Of a DNA stretch of 64,000 nt, positions 41,110 to 64,000 are shown piece after piece (positions within the stretch are counted from its first letter, which is position 1; every line of letters begins with the position of its first letter). The translations under genes were made by a program, and so were the position numbers. Location of the stretch: contig NC_134677.1 in the NCBI RefSeq assembly GCF_024713945.1, positions 2,979,001-3,043,000 of the forward strand, written 5' to 3'. Under the pieces are notes generated by a model, which worked only from the letters and a program-made list of their open reading frames with translations, was not told where the DNA came from and did no database searches. The DNA comes from Dermatophagoides farinae. Its lineage: Eukaryota; Arthropoda; Arachnida; Sarcoptiformes; Pyroglyphidae.

Positions 41110-41764
41110 CCTACTTCATTGGATGAAAACTGGATTATTATAACTCTGTATGTAAAGTTTTCATTGAAGAAAAATTCTAAATCATGATGCAGTTACTGTC
41201 ACCTATCATCAATGATTGCAACTATTTATTTTTAAAAAAATTTTCAAAATAACATTAACCAACAGTATATATGTGTAGATAAAAAAGGTGTGTCTTTTAG
41301 CTTTTCGGCTGTTCTGTTAGGAGGTGTGTGCGTGAAATGAAAAATTTTATTTCCCCTACGGCCCTAGAAAAAAAGACCCAAAATGGCGTTCCATTTTTTC
41401 CTATCGTTCAGTATGTCATCGGGTCTCATATCTATGTGATGTGTATGTGTGTGTATTATGTGAATTTATTTTCATCTTTTTTTTTGAATACATGATTGCA
41501 ACATTTTTTTTATTCGAAAAAATTTTTTGAAATTGAGTTTCACAATGCTGATTGTATATTCCAAGCCAAAAAAAAATGGGAACCAAATTTTTTTTTTGAT
41601 CGATGTTTTTCTTAATTTAACCTTTTTTATGTTTTTCTGTTCGTTCGTATATATATATAGATACTGATTGATTACCACTGTGAATCTCTCATCACAAAAA
41701 AATCGACCAAAAATATTCGTTCCACAATTTAATAGAAAAACTTAAAAAAAAAAAATTTGGCCAA

Positions 41765-41842
41765 CTGCTTTTACCCGTAGATTCGAACTTGTGTTATACA
41801 AAAAACAACAACAACACAACCATAAATCTTGATGAATCTTGA
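41765..41842 (+). ncRNA. mir-100: microRNA mir-100
   Basis: The segment 41772-41793 matches mature miR-100 (miR-10/100 family) at all but two positions: base 1 is T instead of A, and base 12 is T instead of C. The seed ACCCGTA is intact. It is followed in order and on the same strand by let-7 and mir-125, the conserved let-7 complex arrangement, which supports the identity. The mature strand is on the 5' arm. The fold is weaker than for mir-125: I can pair TTGTGTT with AACACAA (41813-41819) and AGATT with AATCT further out, but the base of the stem is poor. The precursor ends are therefore approximate. MicroRNAs of this family load into Argonaute and repress target mRNAs; miR-100 acts in developmental timing and growth. 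Confidence 0.8.
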
Positions 41843-43081
41843 ATCCAAGAATATTTATTTTCTCTACCTTATATATACATTTTTGGGAAAAAAAATTCTG
41901 GAAAAGTTTTATTTAAGATTATTTTCCATTAATGATTGATTGATTGATTGTTGTTGTTGTTGATTCGATCCAATTCACAAGTTTCTATCTATGGGTATAG
42001 GCAGTTTTTTTGGAATGTATAAACTGTGAACATAAAAAAAAAATTGTTTTTTCTCTTCCCATCTTTTGAACAATTCTCTCGATCTCAATCCATCCTTATC
42101 TTTATTATTATTATCTATTTCAACCCAATTTATGAAATTTTTTTCCCTTGAATCCTTGAATGAAAACAAAAAACAATAACGATGTATGCTGCTATGTTGA
42201 TTGTTGGTGAATATTTTTGTTTGTGTGTTTTACATGCAAGTGGTGGTTGTGTGTGTGTGTGTGTGTGTGATTTGAATAAGTGCACTTCATAATATAATTT
42301 TGTTTCATCAATTACTTGTTTAATCGGTGTTTTTGTTTTTGTTTTCAATCTTTTTTCACCTTTTTTTCTACTTTTTCTCCACCGATAATGATGATTTCGA
42401 TTATGATTTAGTGAAACAGTTGACAAGAACAAAAAAAAACAACTTCAAACATCTTTCTTTTTCAGCTATTTAATTCATTTTATTAATTCCATAAATGAAA
42501 AAAAAATCGGGCCTAAATTCTTCAATTCTGACAAAAAAAAAACCAATCAACATCAATTTTATATTTTAAATTTCATTGTTTATTATCATTCCCAACACAA
42601 TAAAAATTGCATTGGACCCGAAGAAAAAGGGGTTTCTATAAAAAAAACAATTTACCCCTTTTTCTTCAAGATTATTGTTCAAGTCAAAAAAAATTTCATC
42701 TTGAACTTTCCTTCTTTTTTTTCGTTCTTTTTGTTTGTCATTTTTTTCATGTTTATTTATTTATTTACCATTCTTTTTTTCAGATAAGATTAGTCATTTT
42801 TTCTCATTGCTAATTCTTCAATTCTATTTAGTATTGTTTATCTATTTTTTTTCATTTTGTACAATTATTGTGTGAATGTGTATGTATTTTGGTGTGTCAA
42901 CGCAGCGACAATCAGCTGATACATCAATAAATAACCTACTACACCTTTTTTTTAGTAGTTGATTGCATGTGTTGATTCTATGTGTTGTCTTTATTTAGCT
43001 TCCTACTAATCATTACATGTGAACTTTCAATCTTATTAGTTTTTTTCTTTTGCTTTCTTTTATATTATCAATATATAATGT

Positions 43082-43162
43082 GCCTCGGCCATACTGAGGT
43101 AGTAGGTTGTATAGTTGCCATTTTTTTCTTTGACATTTGACATCTTCTTATTCCAAAACTCT
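43082..43162 (+). ncRNA. let-7: microRNA let-7
   Basis: The segment 43095-43115 is identical to mature let-7 over its whole length, beginning TGAGGTAGTAGGTTGTATAG. It forms the 5' arm of a hairpin. The 3' arm (about 43134-43155) pairs through A-U, G-C and many G-U pairs, e.g. CUUCUUAUUCCA against UGAGGUAGUAGG with two mismatches, across a loop of about 16 nt. let-7 is one of the most conserved animal microRNAs and drives the switch to adult fate. It lies 1.3 kb after mir-100 and 0.78 kb before mir-125, presumably in one primary transcript. Confidence 0.95.
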
Positions 43163-43362
43163 TAGTATCACTTGTTTTTGTTTTTGATTTTTTGTTGTTT
43201 TTTGATGTTTACAAGAATTCGATCGATTCACAGCATATATCTGGAATTGTGAATGATGAGATCAAGATGATGATGAATGAAAAAACAAGTGTTATTTGTT
43301 TTTTGGATTTGAAGAAAAATTTCAAGATTGTCGGGAAAAAAATTCTAATCAAAGCCAAACTG

Positions 43363-43419
43363 TACAACTTACTAGCTTATTGTGTTCGGCGAGCCAATAA
43401 GCAACGAATTTTAGTTGTA
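43363..43419 (+). other. Two-tier inverted repeat between let-7 and mir-125
   Basis: TACAACT (43363-43369) pairs with AGTTGTA (43413-43419). Inside it, GCTTATTG (43375-43382) pairs with CAATAAGC (43395-43402) around a 12-nt loop. The shape is a short stem-loop in the same presumed transcript as the microRNAs. It does not match a microRNA I know and is short for a precursor. Confidence 0.35.
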
Positions 43420-43861
43420 GCGCTATCCCTTCCTCATCACTTCTTAGTTTAAATTCTTTCTTTTTTCACTTTTTTTTTCTTTCAATCAAATTTTTTTTTC
43501 GGGTTCATTGCTATTGTCAATGGGAATGATTAATTATTGTTTTAACATTTTTTTTAAAAATCTTCAATTTCTTCAAAAAAATTGTATTTGGTGTGATGAT
43601 GATGATGTTGATGGTGGTGGTGGTTGTGGTGGTTCAACATGATTTCAATTGTGGTTTGAATTATGTCGGTATGTTAGTTTTTTTTGTTGTTTACATTTTT
43701 ACAATTTATTCTACCATTGAGAGCGATTTTTTTTTTCTTTCTATAATTATTGAAATTCTTTATATTTTTTTTCGATAATAATATTCGACCCATTAGGTTT
43801 TTTTGTGTATTTTTAACGTTGTGCGGTATTGGCGTATGTTTATTTATTTGTGTGTGTGGCC

Positions 43862-43978
43862 TGTTCCTCTGTCCCTGAGACCTTAGCTTGTGGTCAATGA
43901 ATTTTTTTCTAACAAAAATCATTTGTTCAATGAGAAACACACGAGTTAATGTCTCAGGTGACCTAGTGACAGGGAACA
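43862..43978 (+). ncRNA. mir-125: microRNA mir-125 (lin-4 family)
   Basis: The mature sequence starts at 43872 with TCCCTGAGACC and matches miR-125/lin-4 except for a few substitutions after base 11 (TTAGC where miR-125 has CTAAC). The seed CCCTGAG is intact. The hairpin is strong: CCTGAGAC pairs perfectly with GTCTCAGG at 43951-43958, the stem continues through TTAGCTTGTG / CACGAGTTAA-type pairing, and the outer TGTTCCT pairs with AGGGAACA at 43971-43978. It is the third member of the let-7 complex. lin-4/miR-125 represses lin-28- and chinmo-type timing genes in other animals. Confidence 0.95.
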
Positions 43979-43979
43979 T

Positions 43980-46795
43980 CATTACAATCGTTGGTTTTTT
44001 CGTTGTCGATTGAATTGTATAATTTAATGACAAATGATGATCACGTGTTTGTTTTATCACTGATGAAACAAACGTTATTATTTTTAATCACTCACGAGGA
44101 CAATGATGATGATGATGATGATGATGACAATGGCCGAATCAAAACAAGGGTATCGTCATAATGTGCGATGATCAATTGATCGATGGACAATGTTGTTTTT
44201 AATTTTGTAGTGACAATATTTTGTTTTAATTGTAATTATTAAATAAATGAACTGAAACTTTGCCCGTGTAGCTAGAACACTGTTGATCACTGTTTAGATG
44301 ATTTCGTTTGGATGGACATTCTAAGGTAATAATGAAAAAAAAAATTTAAAACAGAATTTTAAAACATTTTTTTTCGCATTTATCACTAAGAAAATTTAGG
44401 TTATTTCGGCTAACGATAATGGACACAAAATGATGACTGATTAATTGCTGCTTGGGAACTAATGCTGCCTAATATCAACCTGATCATCGCTTTTTATCAT
44501 GATAGGCCGTGCTCATTTTTTTCTGAAATGTTCGAGACGAGAGACTAAAGGAGTTTTTTTTGTTTCTACATTCGGTCCAAAAGGCTTGAAGCCCGCCCAA
44601 TTTTCAATTTGATGATGAAATATTAGCTGCCAAAGCCACCGCTGCCTGTGTCCTAATTTAATATTGAATTTTTGTAATTTGAATGAAAAAAATCCGATAA
44701 ATATTGAACATGTGTGACCTAATAAATAAAAATTCAAAAAAAAAAATCGAAAAAACAACCCCTCATCAACCTTTCGTTCTAATTTCAATAATTCAAAAAT
44801 CCAGGGTAACCAGGAAAGAAAGAAAAATGAATAGCTTTTCAATAATTTGTATATCGAACGACGATGTGAATGTGGATGGATGGATGGTGAAAATAAACCC
44901 AACAATAACACACACACACACACACAGACATTTATACCCGACAATCTCAGATGCGTACAAATCAAATTCAATTACGGTGTTCAAAAACGGTCAATTTCCT
45001 GGATCAAAATTTTTTTTTCATTTTCATTCTTTTTGATACACTAAAAAATTTTCAGTAAATCATCAATAGTTTATTCAACTAATTAATTGTTCATGAATTT
45101 CGTTTTTTTTTTGTTCACACACACACACATAAAAACACATCCATCATGATTGATGATGATTACAAGAGATAAAAATCAAATTGATGATAATAATCCTGAT
45201 CATCATCATCATCATTTAATATTCATGAAGACGATGAATGACTGTATTCAATCCATTTTTATTTTCAAATTCAATCGATCTCTTGTGATCACATCACCGT
45301 TTTATTTTTGACAAAAAAAAATCACACGGTTCCCATACACACACACACACATCATTTGGATATGACACAAAAGATCTTGAAGAAAATCTGTCTCTCTCTC
45401 TCTTTCTCTCTTTCACCTTCTATGTCAAAAGCTTTCGTCTATTTCAATCGAATTTTTTATAATTTAAAAAGAAAAAAAAAGATGCTGTATTATTGCTCGT
45501 GCAATCACTACCCAAAACATCAGGCATAAATCGATCCAGAAAAAAGAGGTCATGAATGGGGTCAAAGTTCAGCACCAACATGTGTTATGTAATAATACGT
45601 TATGATAATGATGAGTTATGCAAACATACACGCACACCTAGGTCTCTACCCCATTTGCATCGGGTTTTTTTTTGCTTTTTGCCATTTTTTCCATAAGTTA
45701 TTAGCATCAGGCACACAACATCACAGGACCAAATGTTTTTCGTTCTTTCTTTTTCTTTATCCCTCTTTCTCTCCTTTATTTTCTTCATCCTGTGATGCGG
45801 TACATTGTTTTGGATACCAAGAAAATAAAAAAAAAATTTCATAGGATTTTCAAAGATTTTTTTTTATGAATCAAAATATAAAGAAAAAAAAATTAATGTT
45901 CATTTTGTACAAACATCCATTTCCTGAGTCGTTTCTTAGTAATCAATGGGAAAATTTTTTTTCCCTTCACTTTCATTTCGTTTCATATATGATCGGATTG
46001 TCGTAATTTTCATTTTGAAAGCAAAAAAAAAACAACTGAAGGGAGTTAGTTTGGATGCTTGGTTTAGTTTCGGTTTTTTTTGTTTGAAGAAAGTGATGTA
46101 TGGCTTGTTTGCTAAGAGAAGAAAAGAGAAAGTTTAGTGAGTTTTGTTTTCAGTTCGTTGATCGCAGTATGATTGGATAAAAAATTTTGAAGAATTTTTG
46201 TTTGATTTAGTTTTGTAATACAAAACGACAATAAAATGAATGGATGAATAATCGGTGGTCTAAAAAAAAGAAAAAAAAACTTGAGGATACATAAATTATC
46301 GGTTGATATATATGTCATTCAGTTAATAAATAAATCATATTTAGTCAGAATCAGAATCAATAGATGGCGTTATGATTTACCTTCAACTCCATTTCTGAAC
46401 GTGAGAAATTATTTTTTCGAATAAAATGAAATTGACCAAATCTGATTTTATGTAAAGGATTAATAAACTTGGCAGTTTATCTTCAGGGAAAAAATCCACC
46501 ATTCAGCTTATTAATTAATTAATGTTTAAACGCTATATGTTATAAATTAAAAAAAAATTCTAGAAGATTCAAGAAAATAAAAAGCATGGGAAAAGAAATT
46601 TTCCGAAAACATTTCAAGCAAGATGCTAGCTCATTGAGGCTGCGTAAATTGATTTTCGAAGAAATGACCTATCTGTTATTCATATAATCGTTGTTGCTCA
46701 TCATTTCATCACAAGATTTAGTTGCGTATTTTTTCGAAGCTGATATTTTGATTTTTTTCCTAGAAATTCTTGCGATATAATTTGAAAAAATAACA
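43980..46795. other. Non-coding stretch between mir-125 and CHCHD2
   Basis: No exon recognised. It contains a (GAT)n run near 44105-44128, several CA tracts and poly-A/T runs. It probably holds the 3' end of the let-7 primary transcript and the CHCHD2 promoter. A TAGATGGCGTT word lies at 46361-46371. Confidence 0.4.
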
Positions 46796-47287
46796 ATGGC
46801 TCGACGTGGACGTTCATCACTATCATCATCACCAACACGATCATCGTTTGGTCCAGCTCGGCCCAGTCAACCACGAATGGCCGCATCAAGACCAATGTCA
46901 CCTCCTGCTCCATCACAATCACTTCCAATGCGGCAACAATCTGCCGCTGTAGCACCTGCTCAAGCACCATCACAAGGCCCAGGACTTCTTGGACAAATGG
47001 CCGCAACTGCTGGTGGTGTAGCTATTGGATCGGCAGTTGGACATACCATTGGTCATGCAATTACTGGATCGGGAGGTGGACAAAGTGCCGAAACACAGGC
47101 ACCAGCACAAGTTCCAGCTCAATCACAATATGGATCTGAACAGCAACAACAACAACAACAATCACCATGTCAATTTGAATTGAAACAATTTTTAGATTGT
47201 ACACAAAATTATGATCTTACCCTTTGTGAAGGTTTCAATGAAGCTTTGAAACAATGTCGTTTGCAATATCCATCAGCACGCATATGA
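46796..47287 (+). CDS. CHCHD2: CHCHD2/CHCHD10-family twin CX9C mitochondrial protein
   Basis: A single-exon 163-residue protein of the normal length for the family. The N-terminus is basic and rich in Ser, Pro and Ala ([15 protein letters not shown]), as expected of a mitochondrial targeting region. The conserved central hydrophobic Gly/Ala segment at about 62-92 reads [20 protein letters not shown] followed by [10 protein letters not shown] seven-Gln run (115-121) precedes the CHCH domain, with Cys at 125, 135, 144 and 154 forming two CX9C motifs ([11 protein letters not shown] and [11 protein letters not shown]). Such proteins are oxidised by the Mia40 relay in the intermembrane space and support respiration and cristae structure. 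ATG at 46796 is the first in frame, in the context AACAATGG. The gene converges on the Tudor gene, with about 115 nt between stop codons. Confidence 0.96.
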
Positions 47288-47402: not shown

Positions 47403-48168
47403 TTAAAAATTCGATACATTAATATATTGAGCTACTTTTGAATCGACAAGATATTGGCTCAATGAAGGAAATTCATCCAGTTTAGAACAATCATTCATGG
47501 GTAATAAATCACAGACAATAATTTTATCATTCAATAAATCCGGTTTCATCACTTTCAATAAGAATTTTCCATTTGTTGTCTCCTTTTTGAACATGAAATT
47601 AGCATAGCTTGTCCATTCATATTGCAACGGTTTTTCCGAAACCAATTTGACATCATCATATGGTTTTATATTATCAAGTGAACAAGGAAAACATAGGCCA
47701 CGAGATTCATTAAAATTATCGATTTCTAATGTTGATGTTGATACGAATTTCGATTTCCAGGAAACGAATTCGATTGAACCAAAATCAATAAGCAAAACCT
47801 GTGACAACAAAAAAAAATTGATTTAAATGTAATGATAAAAAAAACTATATCCATCATATTACCTTGCCACAAATTGGTTTATGATTGCGATCACATTTCA
47901 TCGAAATCAATCTGGCCCTGCACCAATCCTTGTGAATATCGGAATATACCAAAGCCAAAATAACAGAACCAGAAACAGAATTTCGTCTAATCAAATCGGG
48001 CATCGAATGTGGTTCAGAATCGATGTGTTGTCGAATTAATTTTGTTAATTGTTCATAACGTTCAACATCTTGTTCAACACGACAATAGAAAAGTGTAGGG
48101 CTATTAACGTGTGTTACAATAACCGATTCATCAGTCATACAGTCGTGGTCTTGTTTTTGTTTAGACAT
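47403..48168 (-). CDS. Single Tudor-domain protein (TDRD-like), two exons
   Basis: Exon 1 is 48168-47863 (102 codons, phase 0). A 64-nt GT..AG intron follows (47862-47799), and exon 2 is 47798-47403, giving 233 residues. The Tudor barrel runs from VTHVNSPTLFYCRVEQD (residues 18-34) through VILALVYSDIHKDWCRARLI (about 69-88) to VLLIDFGSIEFV (103-114), split by the intron just before the last strands. The rest, including GLCFPCSLDNIKPYDD and KFLLKVMKPDLLNDKIIVCDLL, fits the SN-like half of an extended Tudor domain. Extended Tudor domains bind symmetrically dimethylated arginine on Piwi-type or Sm proteins and often act in piRNA and germ-granule pathways. The protein is nearly nothing but one such domain. 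I cannot name the orthologue. It is divergent from the TPK gene, with 636 nt between the start codons. Confidence 0.85.
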
Positions 48169-48804
48169 TTTTTATAGGAAATAAAACAAAACAAAAAAAA
48201 TACAGAATCGTTTACAATAAATTTTATATTATATTAATTCAATAATTTGAAAATACGTGTTTGGGTGTGTGTGTGTGTGTTTATGTGTATTCGTTGGAAA
48301 ATTTATTTGGGAAATAATGTACAAAAAAAATATTGAATGTTCAATGCATTTTATTTGGATGTGGAAGTTGAATTATTTGTTGCTTGCAAATTTAACCATA
48401 ATCATAACAAACAGACAACAAAATAATGATGCAAACAAACAAAAAAAAAGTGAACGCGTTGGCCTGTGAAAACGTGGTAAATGCATTTGATAATCGATTG
48501 TATCATCAAACTTTAATTTAAATTAGTGGCGCCATCCAGAGTCCTGTTTTGATTTTATTCTTGAATACAATTTTTTGTGTATCATGCTGAATGGGATGCC
48601 GGTCATGTTTGATAAATTTTATCAACGATGATTTGATACAAATATGGAAAAATGATCTAATAAACAACTATATTTAGAATGTAAAAACGATCTAATGTAC
48701 AAAATGTATAATTAGATCCAGTATATAATTGTGGATGCTAGTCAATCGAAGCAATCATTTGCAATATTATCAGCTTTGAGTATCAATCGCTGTCCAGATT
48801 TTAA
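48169..48804. promoter_or_regulatory. Shared upstream region of the Tudor and TPK genes
   Basis: 636 nt separate the divergent start codons. The stretch holds a short TG run (48265-48281), AT-rich sequence and the word TGGCGCCATC at 48527-48536. A bidirectional promoter is possible but no core element is recognisable. Confidence 0.4.
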
Positions 48805-49785
48805 ATGGATAAAATGAATTTAGAAACTCGTGATTTTGATTGGGAAAATTGTCTAAAAACAATCAAACGTCATGGAAAGGGTGAGTATTGATTCCCTTAA
48901 ATTTTTCTATAAGAAAATATTACAATAATGTTCATTGCATTTTTTCAGATAAGAATATTGTTGTCATGATGTTGAATCATTGTTTCGATACAATATTATC
49001 GAAATTTGAATCAATAGATCAATTTTTATGCAATGAAAAGTTTAAAAATTTTCAAGAAATTTGGAACAATAGTTGCGTTCGTATGGCTGTGGATGGTGGT
49101 GCAAATGTTCTTTACGATATGCAGCAATCTAATGCTAAATATGATGGGCAACTTCTCGATCCTACTTTTTTAAGCGGTGATTTTGATTCAATTCATCCAA
49201 AAGTGATGGATCACTTTAAACAACGTGGAGAAAATATAAAAATTATGCATACGCCCGATCAGGATCACACGGATTTTACAAAAGCATTGTTTATTCTGGA
49301 TGAACAAGTTTTGAATCTGAATACTACTCCTGCAATTGATTGCATTTTGGTTTTCTTTTCAAATTCAGGACGAATCGATCAATATTTATCGATTTTATCT
49401 ACTGTCCATAATTTCAGTAATAACAATAAAACTTTTCCGCCTATAATTCTAGTCGATATGGTCGATTCGATTAGTTTTGTATTGAAAAAGGTGAGTCATA
49501 CGAAATGAATTATGGTTACAATTTTTTTTAAATTTTTTTTTCTTGTCTCAGGGTTCATCACATCGAATACCGAAATTTGATGATGCTAACTGGTGTTCAT
49601 TGATACCTTTATGTGGGCAAGCTAAAGTTAAAACTGTTGGTCTACGTTGGAATCTTGATGAAAATATTGAGCTTGAATTTGGAAAATTTATAAGTTCATC
49701 TAATGAATTTGATCGTAACACGAACATTGTTACTGTTAATGTTGCTGAAAAACCGATTCTATTCTCTACAGAATTTCATTTGTAA
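48805..49785 (+). CDS. TPK1: Thiamin pyrophosphokinase
   Basis: This enzyme transfers pyrophosphate from ATP to thiamin to make the cofactor ThDP in the cytosol. Three exons: 48805-48880, 48949-49490 and 49552-49785, joined at phase 1 (G/AT giving Asp) and phase 0, total 283 residues. Introns are 68 and 61 nt with GTGAGT donors. Catalytic-domain motifs are clear: VDGGANVLYD (Asp at residue 74), LSGDFDSIHP (102-107 core), TPDQDHTDFTKAL (from 127) and GRIDQYLS (166 on). The C-terminal thiamin-binding domain has WCSLIPL and TVGLRWNL. The usual glycine pair before GR-DQ is replaced (FFSNSGRIDQ). About 40 residues longer than human TPK1, mostly at the N-terminus and one N-rich loop. The start ATG is the first in frame in exon 1; a second Met lies three codons later. 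Confidence 0.95.
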
Positions 49786-61400: not shown

Positions 61401-61448
61401 TCTTTTTTTTGTTCCATTCCTCTATTCAATGTTTTTGGTGATGATCAG
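55491..61448 (+). other. Probable first intron of the large membrane-protein gene
   Basis: No coding exon recognised in this 6 kb. It carries CA/TG tracts (55835-55850, 56602-56615, 56717-56738, 59092-59105), GAT runs at 57128-57143 and 60140-60164, and poly-A/T. It ends in a long T/C tract (61384-61430) and GATGATCAG, a good acceptor. Further small exons cannot be excluded. Confidence 0.4.
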
Positions 61449-64000
61449 AGAATCCAAGAGCCATTCATCATTCAACGACAACAATTACGAGCTTGAACTG
61501 GTCATTACCGTTGATATCAATGTTGAACGCCCGTTTTCAAACGGCACCAACTGTTTTTCCATGTTTGGATACATTTGATGTCAGACTTTTTTGGGAAGTT
61601 CATCGTATCGATGATTATTATTATTATTATTATTCTGGACAACAATATACTCAATCATCAGGTCCAATAGTTAAATCGACAAATAATGACAACTTGAATG
61701 TTCGCCATCTGATACGTCTATATTGGACCAAAAAAGACATAGTGGATAAAGTTTTGTCGGCTGCCGTTAAGCATCAACGACAACTATTACATAGACATGA
61801 TATTCGACAAAGACGACAACGAAAACCCATGTGGACATTATTCACAGCACATAATAGATCTTGGCCATCATTGTCACATTTTCTCAATTCAAATTATGAT
61901 AATAATAACAATAACATCAAGAAAAGAAAAATAAGAAATAAAAAGATCCGCTATACGACAAATCTAACTAATCTCCACCACCACAATAGTCAGCCTAGTC
62001 ATTTTTTTTATTCTACACGACCATCAACATTGATTGAGATGAAAAAATTTCATTATGTACGAGAATATTCTTTGGATATGGAAAGTGATGATCATGATAA
62101 TCATATTGGTGTCGTTGATAATAATAATAATGATGGCAATGCTGCTGGTGGTGGTGGTGGGCTAATAAAAATTCCATGCGATTCATTTCAACCAAGTGAA
62201 GACATTTACTATTGTATTGTTTATTTAATCCTTCATAAAAGTGCTGTATTATATGAGAATATACCACATTGTATTCCAACTATAGATAGAAATATAGAAC
62301 AAAATGGTCATGTCCAGTTGAATGGTTCAACAACATTATTCCGGAATATCTTTGTTGATGGTCAACATCGTGCTGTGTCATCATCGTCGTTGTCGTATCC
62401 AAGTGAGATTAAATTCAATTATAACACTAACAACGATGAATCAGTGATGAGCAACAACAACAAAGAAACAGCAACAATAACTGAAACATTCAATGAAAAT
62501 AATTCTTTTAACGAATACAAATCATTCATACAGAAGAATAGACTTGATGAAAATCATTCAATGTCAACATCAATCAACCACAATGCATTCATGGATGTAC
62601 GAGCACTAAATAATTCATCAGTGAACCGGATTCCATCCAATATACGATTAATACAGAAGAAGCAAAACGCTTTTCAACCGATGAATCATGATTCAAGTAA
62701 TTCACTTGGTGAAATAGAAACGGTCATTGTACAAACACATGCGTGTAGTTGTAAATTCGATTCAAATACTAATCATGTCAATCAAAAAATTCAAGAATTA
62801 GATTTGAAAACTTTGAATGTTAACAATAAAAAAACAATCATTATAAATCTAATGATAACAACTTGTTCAAAAATTGTACGAAAAAAATTTTATGAATCTA
62901 AATCAGCCTTACTAGATCATTATTTATTCAATCATATTGTTGATCCGAATGCTTATTCTGATGCTGATGTTGATGATGATGATGATGATGATGTGGAAGA
63001 AAAGAGACATTTGAAAAATTCAACCAAAAAGAAACAAAGAAACAAACGGAAAAAGAATAATAAAATAAGAATCGATCAAGCAAATAATAATAATAATAAT
63101 GCTGACAGTGAGAAACAAATCCCAATTCACAATAAGAATGATGACGAGAATAATAATAATAATACAAACATGGAAAATAAAATGAATGAATTTGACATCT
63201 ACAATCAAATAAATTCGAATGAATATTATCATAACAATCCTACTGTATGCATTATTTCAATTGACAAGCCAGAAAAATATTTATTTGAATTGAAAAATAT
63301 TGAACCAAGTATTGAATGGCTTTCTGAAAATCCAATGTTAGCTACATATTTTACTGAAACATTATTCAATAATAACGACAACCACAACAACAACAACAAC
63401 AACAATGTTGTCAATGATGAAGATTCATCGATCGATTATTCACATTTTTTAGTGGTCAGAAATGGCCGATCATCTATCGATCCACAGCTAAATATTGAGA
63501 ATCGTTCACAAATACATTATCTACAATCAAAACATATTCGTTTAGAGGCATTATCATCAATGAATTTAACGTTAAAATTTCAACAACGTTTGCTTTATCA
63601 TAAAGAACGAGATTATAATAATAATAACCATGATGATGATGATGATGATGATAATGATAAACATTTTTCAAATAACGACAATGATAATAAGCATTTATTG
63701 GATCATTTATTTGTGAATATATGTCGTGGATTCTATTCATGGATCAAACAAACCGTTTCAATGATAGCAGTAAAAGCATTTCGACTAAATAAATTGGCCA
63801 ATACACAAACTGTATCAACTAGAAAAATAACAACGTCCGTAACGTATGCATATACTTCAAATATTTTGTCCACAAACAATATTATTGAACAACAAAACAA
63901 TGAATTATCGATGATTAATATGCCTACATTTCATATAGTTTCAATCATATTGTCAATATTCATTGTATTGACATTTTTGATTTATGCGATAATTGCATTC
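61449..64000 (+). CDS. Large N/D-rich single-pass membrane protein of unknown function (3' end outside window)
   Basis: An uninterrupted frame of 850 codons runs from the acceptor at 61448 to the last base of the window; the frame is closed upstream by TGA at 61442-61444. With the signal-peptide exon it gives 888 visible residues. The segment just after the junction has the more ordinary composition (TVFPCLDTFDVRLFWEVHRI, then seven Tyr from a TTA repeat). Later parts contain a basic cluster (KRKIRNKKIR), the Cys-bearing blocks IPCDSFQPSEDIYYCIVYLI and QTHACSCKFD, poly-Asp (SDADVDDDDDDD), poly-Asn stretches and NxS/T sites. The last 20 or so residues (HIVSIILSIFIVLTFLIYAI) are a transmembrane helix cut by the window edge. 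This suggests a type I membrane protein. I recognise no domain; simple-repeat expansion (AAT, GAT) has shaped its length. Confidence 0.75.

Follow-up and report, generated by a model that had tools for sequence, protein, structure and literature searches.

let-7 is among the most conserved miRNAs of animals, and it is subject to control through its short loop, which is bound by Lin-28 and recognized by Dicer. The usual animal pre-miRNA is a hairpin of ~60–80 nt with a short loop of a few dozen nt. Plant-type precursors with long hairpins also exist, for example MIR319, and for the natural-antisense miRNAs of rice MIR444 the hairpin forms after splicing. In bilaterians, let-7 belongs to a complex with mir-100 and mir-125, such as let-7-C of Drosophila, and the available text of PMC4987109 describes clusters of these miRNAs in spiders, a scorpion and a horseshoe crab.

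We analyzed a stretch of 64,000 nt of the Dermatophagoides farinae genome, hereafter the window, in which such a complex had been proposed. The mite locus is like the bilaterian complex, including the chelicerate clusters described in that part of PMC4987109, in its miRNAs, their order and strand, its extent within 2.2 kb and its single copy. The cluster itself is thus of a known kind. The unusual part is the precursor architecture of mir-100 and let-7, which was overlooked in the earlier note on this DNA.

An intact, single-copy let-7 complex

Three mature-like sequences were found on the plus strand in the ancestral order mir-100, let-7 and mir-125. The mir-100-like 5p arm occupies 41772–41793 (TACCCGTAGATTCGAACTTGTG), the let-7 5p arm 43095–43116 (TGAGGTAGTAGGTTGTATAGTT) and the mir-125-like arm 43872–43893 (TCCCTGAGACCTTAGCTTGTGG). 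The start-to-start spacings were 1,323 nt from mir-100 to let-7 and 777 nt from let-7 to mir-125, in agreement with the 1.3 and 0.78 kb, the order and the strand given in the earlier note. The let-7 arm equals the bilaterian consensus, in agreement with the identity to the animal consensus claimed in the earlier note. The mir-100-like arm departs from its own consensus at two positions, 1 and 12. The locus has the three miRNAs of a let-7 complex on one strand, in that order and within a few kb, and its let-7 has both the conserved mature sequence and the opposing star arm of the let-7 family.

The copy number of the cluster was assessed by searches of the 62.4-Mb genome, which comprises 22 contigs. 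The let-7 21-mer had a single site, and a reversed control pattern had none. When the 2.2-kb stretch carrying the cluster was searched, its sole full-length match was itself, and the 15 others among the matches listed were short, with 76–100% identity. The unique 21-mer and the single full-length match rule out a second copy of the cluster in the genome. Patterns of let-7 and mir-100 were also searched in viral contigs, and that of let-7 in prokaryote contigs, with no match. These results support the view that the locus is an intact, single-copy let-7 complex of D. farinae in the ancestral order.

Predicted pairing of mir-100 and let-7 with distant arms

The folding of the three precursors was compared with that of shuffled sequences. 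mir-125 formed the good hairpin that had been claimed for it (−42.4 kcal/mol, z −5.6, 0 of 200 shuffles folding equally well). This is an ordinary hairpin at 43857–43976 of the plus strand, with a loop of ~45–46 nt and a star arm at ~43940–43963. The short hairpins proposed for mir-100 (41765–41842) and let-7 (43082–43162) were rejected, being no better than shuffled sequence; z was −0.33 and −0.24, and 72 and 80 of 200 shuffles, respectively, folded equally well. The earlier note had named precursors that fail to fold as evidence against the cluster. Read literally, this applies to mir-100 and let-7, whereas mir-125 folds. The ordinary hairpin checks fail on let-7 and mir-100 because their loops appear to be ~180–240 nt long.

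The partner arms were located by scanning the plus strand of the entire 64 kb for ungapped complements of each mature sequence. The top complement of mir-100 lay at 41976–41997 with 20 of 22 nt paired (score 40.6, next 27.4), that of let-7 at 43358–43379 with 21 of 22 paired (41.4, next 26.6) and that of mir-125 at 43939–43960 with 19 of 22 paired (36.4, next 23.4). In 5,000 dinucleotide shuffles of a 4-kb region, comprising 19,895,000 positions, no position scored as high as any of the three arms. The opposite arms of mir-100 and let-7 lie ~200 and ~260 nt downstream, respectively. Folds that reached these arms were far more stable than shuffled sequence for both mir-100 (41752–42015, z −7.4, 0 of 200 shuffles) and let-7 (43075–43400, −90.2 kcal/mol, z −4.9, 0 of 100 shuffles), and most pairs of the predicted mir-100 duplex had a pair probability of at least 0.95.

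In the extended folds, all on the plus strand, mir-100 is predicted to form a giant-loop hairpin of lower stem, duplex and loop at 41761–42013, with its 3p star arm at 41978–41999 and a loop of ~181–184 nt (41794–41977) folded as a single unbranched stem of 55 pairs. The predicted giant-loop hairpin of let-7 spans 43081–43396, with its 3p star arm at 43360–43381 and a loop of ~240–243 nt (43117–43359), again a single unbranched stem, of 80 pairs. With the 3p ends set by assumed 2-nt overhangs, as for both of these star arms, the arm-to-arm precursor lengths are ~228 nt for mir-100, ~287 nt for let-7 and 92 nt for mir-125, and the corresponding loops are 184, 243 and 46 nt. Sequence and computation together give both duplex arms, the loop lengths and a loop that continues as a predicted long imperfect unbranched stem. 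The mir-100 and let-7 precursors are outside the size and loop range of canonical animal pre-miRNAs, and the 92-nt mir-125 precursor folds well. In other animals, by contrast, such loops typically measure a few dozen nt.

Rfam was searched over the 64-kb window at the gathering score and gave no match. At E values up to 1, the region from 41 to 45 kb had merely two weak, unrelated matches and no match to the let-7 model. The miss by the let-7 model is probably due to loop length; the short-loop mir-125 was unmatched too.

The predicted base of let-7 is disturbed by a local hairpin (43082–43100, plus strand), which would pair 43082–43088 with the let-7 seed and compete with the lower stem of the giant-loop hairpin. 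It was favored by 2.9–5.9 kcal/mol in four of five flank choices and disfavored by 2.3 kcal/mol in the fifth. This modeled structure may delay or control the processing of let-7, or may be an artefact of prediction.

Giant loops in mir-7 and mir-133

Other miRNAs of the genome were located for comparison of loop lengths. Pattern searches of the genome located mir-1, mir-124, mir-184, mir-7, mir-252, mir-993 and mir-71. Canonical mir-10 was not found genome-wide with up to two mismatches, and mir-993 was present. A further scan of 22 miRNA strings in the window and the miRNA loci, including twenty 10-kb stretches, located mir-133, which lies 1.3 kb away from mir-1. It also located four mir-2 genes adjoining mir-71. 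The four mir-2 mature sequences were identical to four D. farinae sequences from one contig in the available part of PMC10434197. The genome also has seven places with an ML domain, one of which matches Der f 2 best (270.8 bits, versus 246.7 for the best Der p 2), in keeping with its assignment to D. farinae.

The loops of all 15 miRNAs, which were searched for or found by linkage and are no random sample, were measured by one procedure, the best duplex within 600 nt. Eleven of the 15 had loops of 15–57 nt, among them mir-125 with 45 nt. The other four had loops of 180–240 nt: mir-100 (181 nt), let-7 (240 nt), mir-7 (180 nt) and mir-133 (228 nt). The arms of these four scored z −8.3, −6.3, −3.7 and −3.6, respectively, against 25 shuffles each; those of mir-7 and mir-133 are thus less outstanding than those of mir-100 and let-7, as are those of some short-loop miRNAs, such as mir-124 (z −3.4, 25 shuffles). 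The mir-7 precursor, with a loop of ~180 nt, occupies 1501–1724 on the reverse complement of its locus (L012), and the mir-133 precursor, with a loop of ~228 nt, occupies 702–975 of its locus (L033). The giant-loop architecture extends beyond the let-7 cluster, since mir-7 and mir-133 share it. A common inserted element in the four loops was considered and rejected, since their shared matches were merely 9–23 nt and mostly of low complexity.

Predicted processing and structure of the loops

We consider it probable that D. farinae has a single-copy let-7 complex with two giant-loop precursors, which Drosha and Dicer process into ordinary miRNAs. Drosha/Pasha would cut at the base of the precursor, where mir-100 and let-7 carry UG at −14/−13. 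This basal UG was present in three of the five precursors compared, those of mir-100, let-7 and mir-7, and not in mir-125 (GG) or mir-133 (AA). The miRNA Dicer with its helicase domain would cut ~22 nt further in, the apical part of 180–240 nt would be discarded, and the mir-100 and let-7 products would act as ordinary developmental miRNAs. The available text of PMC5805368 reports for D. farinae Drosha, Pasha and a Dcr1 that retains its ATP-binding helicase domain, so that the likeliest route would be a basal cut by Drosha and then a cut by Dicer-1.

The loops were also folded alone. Those of mir-100, let-7 and mir-133 each gave one hairpin, of 55, 80 and 66 pairs, respectively, and that of mir-7 gave three hairpins. 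Against shuffles, the loop energies of mir-100, let-7, mir-133 and mir-7 had z values of −3.6, −1.9, −2.1 and −4.9, respectively. Random segments of equal length to the loop were drawn from the window (2.5–46.5 kb) and from the miRNA-locus stretches (n = 500 per pool, both pools containing the loci themselves), and a segment was counted if its hairpins were no more numerous and its depth was at least equal. Such segments numbered 4 and 2 for mir-100, 0 and 0 for let-7 and 0 and 3 for mir-133, in the window and locus pools, respectively. The mir-7 loop was not unusually unbranched, as 112 and 120 segments did as well. A long unbranched stem past the duplex, as in plant-type precursors, was therefore found in all four except mir-7. 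The loop measures were picked post hoc, with the folds already known.

One explanation is that the giant loops arose as AT-rich sequence prone to repeats grew neutrally, with normal processing and an apical stem that has no role. The loops are indeed AT-rich (GC 0.24–0.32) and contain simple repeats, their energies alone are moderately low (25–52 of 500 random segments were equally stable), and the mir-7 loop is branched. However, three of the four loops are single unbranched stems, a form that 0–4 of 500 random mite segments attained and that, by depth, 0.7–1.3% of shuffles attained. Weighing both sides, we give neutral growth a little under an even chance.

Selection on the stem is a more tentative explanation, possible but rather unlikely in our judgement. 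Here let-7, mir-100, mir-133 and perhaps mir-7 would form a dust-mite class of plant-like long-hairpin precursors, with a selected apical stem of 55–80 pairs processed by the helicase-bearing Dicer-1, and the seed-pairing hairpin of let-7 would be a timing switch, no Lin-28 having been found in one cold-shock-domain search. In that search of the genome no clear lin-28 was found, and an intron-split lin-28 could escape it. Its five candidates of the cold-shock family fell at three places in the genome. One is a Y-box-like exon (4.2e-31, versus 7.1e-8 for the best Lin28 chain), and the two others lie ~1.1 kb apart, within long open frames. Unlike plant-type precursors such as MIR319, the mite precursors are those of animal miRNAs, in a genome for which the available text of PMC5805368 reports both Drosha and Pasha.

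Splice sites in the loops

If the loops were introns, splicing would restore an ordinary short hairpin. In rice MIR444, the arms are far apart in the genome, a feature that the mite precursors share. The splice-site test was defined by GTRA donors and YAG acceptors, with GTT donors and AAG acceptors lying outside it. In mir-7, a GTAAAA donor lies 27 nt past the mature start, and its possible partner, a TTTTACAG acceptor, lies shortly 5′ of the star arm. In contrast to MIR444, mir-100, let-7 and mir-133 lack any loop-spanning GTRA/YAG pair. GTRA is absent from the loops of mir-100 and mir-133, and the sole GTRA of the let-7 loop has no YAG between the donor and the star arm. Moreover, splicing would leave the unbranched stems unexplained. 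The GTRA/YAG sites thus do not support spliced loops in mir-100, let-7 or mir-133, and we regard this explanation as improbable.

Published small RNAs of D. farinae

For D. farinae mites, the available part of PMC10722260 gives mir-7 at 1,385 TPM and mir-133-3p at 1,375 TPM. The genome contains the mir-7 22-mer once; since mir-7 is abundant and its 22-mer unique, an abundant miRNA apparently arises from a precursor with a giant loop. With mir-7 and mir-133 both listed as abundant, giant-loop precursors are probably processed.

The available part of PMC10722260, with 42 conserved and 66 novel entries, contains neither mir-100 nor mir-125, and the same holds for that of the exosome paper PMC10434197, with 42 conserved and 32 novel entries. 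Of the small RNAs themselves, the tables give just the mature sequences. Their absence from the tables may be an effect of method, either a requirement for miRBase identity or miRDeep2. Every miRDeep2 precursor in Table 3 of PMC10434197, as available, is <90 nt. Because mir-125, with its normal loop, is absent too, absence from these lists says little about loops.

let-7 is printed in the available parts of PMC10722260 and PMC10434197 only as its exact reverse complement, AACUAUACAACCUACUACCUCA, which PMC10722260 lists as dfa-let-7b at 1,486 TPM in mites. Within the window this sequence maps solely to the minus strand of 43095–43116. The entry may be a reporting error or an antisense RNA; the available text of PMC5805368 reports RNA-dependent RNA polymerases in D. 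farinae. When published novel small RNAs were compared with the window, 3 of 66 matched at up to one mismatch, all of them simple repeats and none at the three miRNA sites. The main text of the scabies-mite miRNA paper PMC9456212, as available, contains none of let-7, let7, mir-100 and mir-125.

Decay of the mir-100 and let-7 precursors, in which the arms persist and products are no longer made, would fit the short hairpins that fail to fold, the failure of Rfam to find either miRNA and the available published lists, which lack mir-100 and mir-125 and hold let-7 only as its complement. It is nevertheless very unlikely. Pairing with the distant arms is near-complete, and let-7 is unchanged in sequence. 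Its duplex sequence, in one orientation or the other, is listed at 1,486 TPM (PMC10722260, available part), with one genomic site for the 21-mer. Furthermore, mir-7 and mir-133, which share the architecture, are listed as abundant, and the normal-loop mir-125 is absent from the same lists.

Our searches of the open-licence literature found no title on a giant-loop let-7 in mites, which does not imply its absence from print, and no description of the architecture, including in the available passages of PMC4987109, PMC6211577, PMC7738191 and PMC3141673. A natural let-7 with a ~240-nt loop, beside miRNAs with normal loops in one genome, lends itself to testing how loops are tolerated or used by Drosha and Dicer. 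Because Rfam was blank here and the miRDeep2 precursors printed in the available part of PMC10434197 are <90 nt, there is also a warning that conserved miRNAs seemingly missing in mites may exist with long loops. The weight of the finding will rise if the long stems prove to be conserved or unusually processed.

Genomic surroundings of the cluster

Of the 233 open frames that were at least 60 aa long, 145 were scanned against Pfam. They were picked for sequence complexity, with three further frames that qualified being set aside, and 98 of these 145 lay wholly inside 2388–46700. The earlier note had recognized no protein gene for 41 kb upstream of the cluster. This was contradicted by a receptor tyrosine phosphatase, whose C-terminal part lies at 513–2387 (PF00102, 3.9e-84). 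The best solved relative of this protein is PTPRG, and PTPRG and PTPRZ are nearest to it in the PDB. On the other side of the cluster, the scan gave a CHCH protein at 46781–47284 (26.5 bits, cut-off 27.2), a Tudor domain on the minus strand at 47857–48171 and a thiamin pyrophosphokinase at 48885–49782. One weak LTV match (2e-4), in a frame that was not located, was absent when 19 frames were scanned again.

Among the scanned frames, a stretch of ~44 kb free of Pfam domains (~2.4–46.8 kb, the weak LTV match being unplaced) surrounds the cluster. A tRNA search with the bacterial code reported none. The domain-free stretch is consistent with the cluster being a putative stand-alone long non-coding transcription unit, as the sequence was first interpreted, and it is plausible that a protein-based annotation would miss it. 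Near the far end of the window, an 852-aa open frame with no Pfam family (61445–64000) carries Asn/Asp runs and a terminal hydrophobic stretch and runs off the window end.
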